A stretch of 64,000 bases of DNA, taken from assembly GCF_916619195.1 (NCBI RefSeq), contig NZ_CAKAKL010000002.1, forward strand, positions 746,001 to 810,000, read 5' to 3'. The notes under the pieces are model-generated. The model ran no database searches, had not been told where the DNA came from, and saw nothing but the letters and a program-made list of their open reading frames with translations. The DNA is from Inquilinus sp. Marseille-Q2685. Its GTDB lineage: Bacteria > Pseudomonadota > Alphaproteobacteria > DSM-16000 > Inquilinaceae. The position numbers and the translations under genes are program-made. Positions 42,855-47,889 of the stretch are shown piece by piece; position 1 is the stretch's first letter; each line of letters begins with the position of its first letter.

Positions 42855-42909
42855 TTGATGCCTGGATACGAGCCGCCGCCGGGGGCTGTCAAGCGCGCGG
42901 CGGTTCCGC

Positions 42910-42938
42910 TTGACTCTATGTTCCTGATTTGTTCTAAT
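42910..42938 (+). promoter_or_regulatory. SOS promoter with embedded LexA box
   Basis: TTGACT (42910-42915) and TCTAAT (42933-42938) are separated by exactly 17 bp. The LexA box GTTC-CTGATTT-GTTC (42920-42934) fills the spacer and overlaps the -10. GTTC-N7-GTTC is the established alphaproteobacterial LexA site. The same design is found upstream of uvrB at 44249-44277. Transcription should start near 42945, at or next to the proposed start codon, giving a very short or leaderless mRNA. Confidence 0.85.
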
Positions 42939-42944
42939 CCGGGG

Positions 42945-43745
42945 ATGGTCGATGATATCGTCAATGCCGGAACTCCCTCTGCCGCTTCGCCGGCCACGGA
43001 CGAGGCCGACATTGCGATGCTGTCCGAGCTCGTGGGGTTCGCCCTGGAGCTGGCCCGCGGCTTCCAGGCCCAGGGCGTCGCCGCCCTTGAGGCCGGCGAT
43101 CTCGACCGCGCCGGGGAGGCGGAGACCCGCTTCAGCAGTCTCTTCCTCGGCATCCGCCGCGCCGTCGCCCTCAAGATGAAGCTGCGGGAGCAGCGGGAGA
43201 AGGCACAGCGCGAGGCCGAAAGCCGCAGGGGCCAGAAGGACGACCGGCGCCGCGCCGTCGCCGAGCGCCTCTCCCGCGCCATCGCCGCCGAGAAGCCCGA
43301 GGCCAAGGAAAGGCTCACCGCCGAGCTCTGGGAACGGCTCACCGAGGACGAGCGCATCGACGCCGACCTCGCCGACACCGCCCTGCCGGTCGAGGTCCTG
43401 ATCCAGCGTCTCCGCTGCGAGATCGGCCTCTTCCGCCGCTCCTTCGACCACGACGGAACCGCCGGCACCGATGACGCCGGCCCGAAGCCGCCGGGCGGGA
43501 CCATCGGCAGGATCGCCACCCCGCCGCCGCGGGCCACGTCGGTCCCCGACGAGCCCGTCATCCGGGCCAGCGATCTCGGCGGATCCGAAGGCGAGCACCG
43601 GCGGCACGACCTCGCCGCCGGTGAGGTCTGCGACGGGTCGGGTAACGTCGTCCGCACCCTGCCCGTATCCGCCCGGCCCCGGCGCTGCGATCCAACCGGC
43701 ATCGCGCCGCCAGCCCCCCGGCCGCCGCCCGACCGGCGAACATAG
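42945..43745 (+). CDS. SOS-controlled protein of unknown function, helical and highly charged
   Basis: This 266-residue protein matches no function I recognise. Residues about 25-165 are predicted helical: SELVGFALELARGFQAQG, then ALEAGDLDRAGEAETRFSSL, then a strongly charged segment rich in Arg, Glu and Lys (KLREQREKAQREAESRRGQK) that could be a coiled coil. The last 90 residues are Pro, Gly and Arg rich and probably disordered. It has no signal peptide or membrane segment. ATG at 42945 is preferred because the ATG at 42918 lies inside the promoter. The LexA-box promoter directly in front predicts induction by DNA damage. Its orientation matches uvrB and uvrC. Confidence 0.75.
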   Translation: MVDDIVNAGTPSAASPATDEADIAMLSELVGFALELARGFQAQGVAALEAGDLDRAGEAETRFSSLFLGIRRAVALKMKLREQREKAQREAESRRGQKDDRRRAVAERLSRAIAAEKPEAKERLTAELWERLTEDERIDADLADTALPVEVLIQRLRCEIGLFRRSFDHDGTAGTDDAGPKPPGGTIGRIATPPPRATSVPDEPVIRASDLGGSEGEHRRHDLAAGEVCDGSGNVVRTLPVSARPRRCDPTGIAPPAPRPPPDRRT

Positions 43746-43840
43746 GTCTGAGCGGATCGCCGCCCGTGCCTGCCCGCGATGCGAATCGCAGCGCAGATAC
43801 GGGATCTCGGCGCTGCTCCCTCCGTCGGTCGGAGACCGTG

Positions 43841-43868
43841 GGTTGGGTTCGCCAGGGCGGACCCAACC
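43841..43868. repeat. Short palindromic repeat (type D)
   Basis: GGTTGGGT (43841-43848) pairs with ACCCAACC (43861-43868) and the interior CGCC/GGCG extends the stem. A related hairpin is found at 61861-61896. It lies about 95 bp after the SOS-controlled gene and could serve as its terminator or be a dispersed repeat. Confidence 0.6.
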
Positions 43869-43882
43869 GCATGAAAGAGAAT

Positions 43883-44201
43883 TGTCATCCTCGGGCTTGA
43901 CCCGCGGCTGTCCGGTTGAGGTTCAGCAGCAACCAGCGGAAGAACTTCAGATCATGACCTTCTATTTATAACTGTCATGCCCGGGCTTGACTCGGGCATC
44001 CAGGAATGTCGATGCCGCTCCGGGCGGCCCCTGGATCGCCGGGTCAAGCCCGGCGATGACAATATAAATTGAGCCCTACTCCTCGTCCGCACCCCGAAAC
44101 CCCTCAACCGGACAGCCGTGAGCTTGACCCGAGGATCCAGGGGCCGCCAGAGCGGCTCTCGGTGGCCCTGGATTGCCCGGTCAAGCCGGGCAATGACAGA
44201 A
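43883..44201. repeat. Cluster of nested REP-like elements (type C)
   Basis: An outer REP arm starts at 43883 (TGTCATCCTCGGGCTTGACC), is interrupted at 43905, and appears to resume at 44123 with CTTGACCCGAGGATCCAGG, ending at 44201 with GTCAAGCCGGGCAATGACA. A complete inner REP occupies 43973-44061. The arms match those at 34082-34161. Together with flanking sequence the cluster fills most of the 607-bp gap between the SOS-controlled gene and uvrB; no gene is present in it. Confidence 0.8.
43905..44118. mobile_element. Putative 214-bp MITE-like insertion in a REP element
   Basis: CGGCTGTCCGGTTGAGG (43905-43921) and its exact reverse complement (44102-44118) form 17-bp terminal inverted repeats. 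The 9-mer CTTGACCCG flanks the unit on both sides (43896-43904, and 44123-44131 after four extra bases), resembling a target duplication. The flanking sequences together rebuild one REP element. There is no coding capacity, so mobilisation would need a transposase in trans. The alternative is recombination between REP copies. Confidence 0.5.
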
Positions 44202-44248
44202 AGGGGGAACCTTCTGGTCTCTGAAACTCGGAGCCCAGCGCTCCCCGC

Positions 44249-44277
44249 TTGACGTCATGTTCCCCCTATGTTCCTAT
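44249..44277 (+). promoter_or_regulatory. uvrB SOS promoter with LexA box
   Basis: TTGACG (44249-44254) and TCCTAT (44272-44277) are 17 bp apart, and the LexA box GTTC-CCCCTAT-GTTC (44259-44273) lies in the spacer. This explains DNA-damage induction of uvrB, known in other alphaproteobacteria. The predicted transcript starts near 44284, so translation begins at the ATG at 44353. Confidence 0.88.
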
Positions 44278-47383: not shown

Positions 47384-47889
47384 ACGACATGGCCGGGCCG
47401 GCATTCGCATCGAAATTATCTCAAGCTTGCGATCGAACGCCCTTGACCCGCTCCCTCCGTCGCGGCAGCCCGGGGCTGCCCGCGATGCTGCGCCCGGACG
47501 CCGCAGGCAACCGCTCTGCGGTAGTCGCTATCGCCTTGGATTTCCTGGCCTCGCCGCTTCGCCACGACCGGGAGTTGTGCACAGGCGAAATCCGAATCGG
47601 AGACGTCCGCAATTTTCCGGCCCGCACATAGCGTGTGATGCTTCTGTTTCAACTTGACTTGGAATTTGTCTCTATTTCTCAATAGCTTAGATTTTTTGCC
47701 TATTTTTTGAGCAACAACGATGACACTTAGGCGGCGCCTCGATTGCGGGTCGTTCGCAGACGGTTCCCCACAAAGTTATCCACAGATTCGGTGGATATCA
47801 CCGAAGCGTCATCGCCCCGCTTCGCCGACTCAGTTGGACGTTCACGATCCGGTCTAGACGCCGCGCCCGGACCGGCCGACATTGCGGCC
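47384..47889. other. Upstream region of uvrC: A+T-rich tract, DnaA box and dyad
   Basis: This 506-bp gap holds no convincing gene. The tract 47635-47725 is strongly A+T-rich, with near-repeats ATTTTTTGCC and ATTTTTTGAG and a possible -35 TTGACT at 47654-47659 without a good -10. TTATCCACA at 47776-47784 is a perfect consensus DnaA box. A second dyad, TTCGGTG-GATAT-CACCGAA, lies at 47787-47805. A palindrome GGCAGCCC-G-GGGCTGCC occurs near 47464-47480. No LexA box was found here, unlike uvrB. Confidence 0.6.

Follow-up and report, generated by a model that had tools for sequence, protein, structure and literature searches.

A dispersing, genus-specific gene family of Inquilinus that appears to live in the SOS regulon

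Introduction

SOS regulons usually comprise small sets of mostly single-copy repair genes. In this study we analysed a stretch of 64,000 nucleotides from Inquilinus sp. Marseille-Q2685, hereafter the window, in which a gene for a protein that matches no known family lies behind a LexA-type promoter and close to uvrB. This locus raises the question whether the gene is a single damage-response factor, as a sequence-only reading of the window had suggested, or whether promoter and gene belong to something larger.

Results

The window gene and its promoter

The promoter, the perfect GTTC-N7-GTTC box and the 266-residue ORF on which the earlier suggestion was built are all present in the window. 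The features of the locus are as follows.

42903..44242, + strand: block of about 1.34 kb, absent from two relatives, with promoter, gene and a repeat-rich 3' stretch (alignments to relatives)
42910..42938, + strand: promoter TTGACT-N17-TCTAAT, -35 at 42910-42915, 17-nt spacer, -10 at 42933-42938 (sequence; -35 and -10 positions kept in 19 A-type promoters)
42920..42934, + strand: LexA-type box GTTCCTGATTTGTTC in the spacer, sharing two bases with the -10 hexamer (sequence; half-sites in A-type promoters)
42945..43745, + strand: family gene of 266 aa, ATG at 42945, 6 nt past the -10 hexamer, predicted leaderless mRNA (aligned homologues; dN/dS)
42993..43292, + strand: helical hairpin formed by residues 17-49 and 53-116; residues 77-117 are rich in K/R (AlphaFold2 pLDDT 79-95 in blocks of ten, residues 21-120)
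43425..43742, + strand: low-confidence proline-rich linker (161-207), short strand-containing module (208-240) and tail (AlphaFold2; sequence)
43880..44198, + strand: interspersed TGTCATGCCCGGGCTTGACCCGGGCATCCAGG-type repeats within the block; similar stretches are numerous elsewhere in these genomes (comparison with the genus)
44249..44273, + strand: uvrB promoter, TTGACG with box GTTCCCCCTATGTTC (sequence; box at the equal place in five relatives; uvrB by Pfam)

The window is GC-rich and contains many overlapping ORFs; the reading frame of the window gene is backed by the alignment of homologues from the start codon onward, and dN/dS was 0.44-0.68 in four comparisons with near relatives. With only 6 nt between TCTAAT and ATG, the start codon falls approximately at the expected start of transcription. 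The layout had been described as the same as that of uvrB, which holds for the similar promoter at 44249-44273, but not for the start codon, since that of uvrB lies 80 nt downstream of the uvrB box.

The box in the genome and LexA as its putative regulator

GTTC-N7-GTTC occurs three times in the window against 0.97 expected, and because 7 of 100 shuffles also reach three or more, the window count alone is weak. The third occurrence, GTTCGCAGACGGTTC at 47752-47766, matches the box perfectly and lies near the beginning of uvrC (named by eye); with no T ahead of its second half-site, it is probably due to chance. Across the window's genome, GTTC-N7-GTTC was found 147 times against 37 for the reversed pattern, and the strict form with T before the second half-site, GTTC-N6-TGTTC, 82 times against 6. 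An excess of the strict form was seen in all six genomes of the genus (47-89 versus 3-10 reversed), and the pattern GTTCNTGNTATGTTCYATG, with 31 occurrences in the window's genome, turns up elsewhere in the class in 3 of 384 genomes, once in each. This genome-wide enrichment, together with the conservation of the box upstream of homologues and its -35/-10 frame, indicates that the box is more than chance.

GTTC-N7-GTTC is the published LexA motif of Alphaproteobacteria (PMC3323433) and is also given as the LexA motif of Caulobacter (PMC12700426). In the window's genome the same box precedes uvrA, uvrB, dinB and the genes for an AlkZ-like glycosylase, an HhH-GPD protein, a DUF763 protein, a DUF72 protein and a radical SAM protein, as well as imuA-imuB-dnaE2 (at L107, genes named by eye), and a single LexA_DNA_bind match marks lexA (G000 C1:768265). 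Four marks of an alphaproteobacterial LexA regulon were found here: an operator over the promoter, an encoded LexA, the operator at SOS genes and its conservation at homologues. Since uvrA, uvrB, dinB and other repair genes share the box and one lexA gene is present, established knowledge makes LexA control of the family very likely.

The boxes also lead to loci of another kind. Large-subunit genes matching Terminase_3 (Pfam) stand behind boxes at L077, L093, L096, L110 and L111, parts of contigs C2, C4, C6, C11 and C12 of the window's genome (G000), and L077 also has a portal gene behind its box; by eye, the box of this group abuts TTGAC and is followed by a dyad. These terminase loci are a second multi-copy box group.

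A multi-copy family behind the box

For each of the 82 strict boxes in the window's genome, the flanking sequence was analysed. Thirty-six box-ORF loci, the window gene included, form one connected family at E < 1e-3 (37 names, one locus appearing twice), and another two boxes (L103, L110) front copies that a contig end cuts off, so that family members stand behind 38 of the 82 sites. Four more copies have a C before the second half-site (C9, C6, C12, C4). Counting truncated and broken ones, and several copies are indeed broken or cut short, the family occupies at least 42 loci in this genome. The window gene, taken earlier for a single damage-response factor, is thus one of at least 42 dispersed copies, and what the locus represents is a family expansion.

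Relatives of P0001 were found in 6 of 143 genomes, all of them in the window's genus and with several relatives per genome. A search with L068 gave matches in 7 of 192 genomes, six of them of the genus; the seventh (G034, E 7e-4) is a DsbA-like ORF by eye and was rejected as a relative. With at most seven candidates scored per genome, so that distant relatives can be missed, profile A1 matched in 2 of 385 genomes and profile A2 in 5 of 385 at E up to 0.01, the latter including G260 (E 3.4e-11), whose interrupted frame looks like a broken distant relative, and three others near 0.009. The related-locus search gave one weak match outside the genus, L015 (E 1e-5). Plasmids searched with two family proteins yielded no relative, and firm support was not found for similar hypothetical proteins in other Alphaproteobacteria. 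None of the publications listed in our literature searches appears to describe the family. Judged by these sequence searches, the family is clearly present in one bacterial genus only, Inquilinus.

Conservation of operator and start codon

Whether homologues keep the box had been proposed as a check on the regulatory claim. Protein-query loci gave 80 hits at 61 distinct places, and 60 of these 61 copies carry a perfect box; the family profile behind this count was built from box-selected members, some of the loci came from alignments of such members, and the loci fetched were the best matches of each search. A script placed a perfect box near the match start at 59 of the 61 places and the reversed pattern at none. 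The sixtieth copy is the window's own, where the box is known and a long open frame misplaced the match start, and the remaining one, L026, has a single mismatch. The proposed check thus did not refute the regulatory claim. The box played no part in selection in the search for relatives with P0001 alone.

The subfamily of the window gene (A-type) allowed the promoter to be resolved position by position. Among 22 upstream regions found, 19 were used, with at least one half-site required for entry; one with a mis-called start and two with the box one base nearer the ATG were left out. The first half-site is present in all 19 promoters and the second in 18, with 1.7-2.0 bits at half-site positions, and the -35 and -10 are conserved as well. 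Within the spacer, variation is seen at the first four positions (-21 to -18; 0.1-0.8 bits), and the last three (-17 to -15) are mostly T (1.7-2.0 bits). In the window's genome, the spacer reads ATGNTAT in 30 of the 36 box ORFs. The conserved positions -17 to -15 and the near-uniform spacer of the other copies exceed what plain LexA binding demands.

This uniformity, and the fact that the promoter of lexA itself has near matches to the box only (by eye), would fit another regulator that recognises the same direct repeat. However, known repair genes also stand behind this motif, a single LexA match was found in the genome, and A-type copies differ freely in part of the spacer, all of which makes a regulator other than LexA most improbable. 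In many non-A copies, for example L070, L083 and L106, a dyad, CAATGTTCATTG with TTAAC or alternatively CGCAGTAGTATTATCGG, is conserved before the box at about -50 to -28 from the ATG, and may possibly be a second regulatory element.

The start codon follows the operator closely throughout. The ATG stands one base after the box in 31 of the 36 box ORFs and 10 bases after it in two (the window gene and L075), and in three the start is altered; 33 of 36 start codons thereby lie approximately at the expected transcript start, which predicts leaderless mRNAs. On established knowledge of such spacing, a leaderless start is likely.

The uvrB site and the spread of copies

In two relatives (G005, G003) the alignment to the window breaks off at about 42902 and resumes at about 44243, the two flanks being 14-17 bp apart, and in two others (G004, G002) the uvrB site is occupied by 1.2-1.3 kb of other sequence; in G001 a transporter gene is missing there as well. 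The block at 42903-44242 is best read as a putative insertion. None of the five other genomes of the genus has a family gene in front of uvrB, so the neighbourhood of uvrB means little; a conserved link between the two genes is not supported, and the nearness of the window gene to uvrB appears accidental or recent.

Block limits, taken from the 45 most similar pairs, vary between copies. L070, L083 and L106 have in common a block that runs from about -50 to about 8-12 nt beyond the stop codon, and other pairs have more 3' sequence in common, up to +245. The neighbourhood of L083 showed a complex pattern and was left out of the comparison. The intergenic site of L053 (L053:3881-4813; L226-L230) has a family copy in the window's genome, is empty in two genomes and filled with other sequence without box in three, which marks it as an apparent variable insertion spot. 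No transposase or recombinase hit was obtained for the window protein (Pfam, NCBIfam, PHROGs), nor among other members (five searched in Pfam, four in NCBIfam) or four further ORFs from the window's block (Pfam). By eye, no terminal repeats were seen, and target duplication was limited to one 7-bp candidate with a mismatch at the L053 site, with none at the window block. Across 17 family pairs, dN/dS was 0.24-0.68 in 15, and 0.92 and 1.07 in the other two.

These observations lend good support to a dispersal of the family together with its operator. A mobile cassette is the simplest reading of it and, in our judgement, a probable one in preference to ordinary duplication; duplication or recombination through repeats are the alternatives.

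The protein

The AlphaFold2 model and residue counts agree with the charged helical core and loose tail that had been deduced earlier from the residues of the window protein: the stretch 77-117 has 15 K+R against 8 D+E, and the hairpin is followed by a weaker helical part up to about residue 160. The model is moderate as a whole (mean pLDDT 73, pTM 0.40). The hairpin recurs in the model of L068 (mean pLDDT 77), and some relatives carry it twice. While the proteins are otherwise divergent, 25 of the 34 members collected in the window's genome end in PDTG, PDSS or SDSS; the window member does not. Synonymous codon changes among the PDTG ends suggest selection on the protein end, which may be a short recognition tail.

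Searched against Pfam, NCBIfam and PHROGs at E up to 10, the window protein gave chance-level matches only, in line with the earlier statement that it has no recognisable function. The best Pfam match of other members, CSRNP_N (E 0.0023), lies below its cut-off and was taken as chance, and these members had no NCBIfam match. No fold match at E <= 0.001 was found for the window protein in the PDB or for L068 in the PDB and a viral library. An oligomeric protein that binds nucleic acid or a partner would fit the anatomy, as a tentative guess.

Discussion

We propose, with a probability of roughly 0.7, that the window gene belongs, as one of many copies, to a genus-specific family that is dispersing and has its place in the SOS regulon. 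With LexA on GTTC-N7-GTTC, the promoter spacer and part of the -10 hexamer would be covered and the gene kept off. DNA damage would remove LexA, and a leaderless mRNA would be made simultaneously with those of dozens of sister copies. The product would be a small protein built on a helical hairpin whose stem is basic and whose tail is loose, perhaps forming oligomers that bind nucleic acid or a common partner in the response to damage. The spreading unit would be promoter plus gene, so that each new copy would already be under LexA on arrival. We give somewhat better than an even chance to the wider suggestion that the SOS regulon of one genus has been taken over, with more than 40 operator-carrying units in one genome releasing a swarm of hairpin proteins with diversified tails upon damage, either as a new damage-response layer or as damage-timed selfish genes.

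The family may instead be no more than a selfish cassette, spreading for its own sake, whose SOS promoter times expression to broken DNA and high recombination and whose protein aids copying or brings the cell no benefit. Dispersed copies with copy-free sites in relatives, promoter and gene within common block limits in some copies, broken or truncated copies, and clear matches confined to one genus would all be expected of such an element. However, nothing like a transposase or recombinase was hit with the members and block ORFs searched, dN/dS of 0.24-0.68 in 15 of 17 pairs speaks against it, and the box has been kept by subfamilies over deep divergence, and we regard a purely selfish cassette as possible though unlikely. 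Another alternative is an SOS-induced inhibitor of growth or division, a damage checkpoint like SidA of Caulobacter or SulA of Escherichia coli. Lineage-specific SOS genes often are checkpoint proteins, and the LexA-type promoter and small helical proteins agree with this, but no known inhibitor was matched in Pfam or NCBIfam, no membrane segment is obvious by eye in this long, charged and proline-rich protein, and joint induction of dozens of such genes would presumably be costly; a division inhibitor thus seems improbable.

Induction by SOS is likewise what remnants of prophage genes, switched on together with prophages, would show. The phage-type terminase genes and the portal gene behind GTTC-N7-GTTC boxes in the window's genome point in this direction, as does a fold similarity, though a very weak one (E 8), to a small terminase. 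On the other hand, the best PHROGs E-value of the window protein was 0.15, one family protein had no match among 50,697 phage records, one subfamily profile found no relative in viral contigs, and L068 had no viral fold match at E <= 0.001, so that a phage origin is highly improbable.

Nearly half of the strict operators in one genome lead into one uncharacterised family, whose tested members match no Pfam or NCBIfam family above cut-off and which is seemingly spreading with its operator attached. With this family one could test directly how a stress regulon is rewired by genes that spread, and what a cell gains or loses from dozens of related proteins induced by DNA damage.

Three known systems invite comparison. 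SOS accessory genes of the SidA/SulA type resemble the family in narrow distribution, in LexA control, which is very likely here, and in having no enzymatic domain in sight. However, they are single genes, whereas here there are at least 42 related copies, with long charged hairpins, proline-rich tails and no family match. With the alphaproteobacterial LexA (SOS) regulon the family shares an operator of GTTC-N7-GTTC form placed in the promoter, like that of uvrA, uvrB and dinB; what differs is that 38 of 82 strict boxes front one multi-copy family and that the start codons mostly lie at the expected transcript start. Non-autonomous mobile cassettes, MITE-like or REP-associated, likewise have dispersed copies, copy-free sites in relatives, no transposase found, and a conserved block with limits that are defined in some copies; terminal repeats or a clear target duplication were not found here, and, in contrast to such cassettes, each unit of the Inquilinus family contains a complete protein gene together with a LexA-type promoter of its own.
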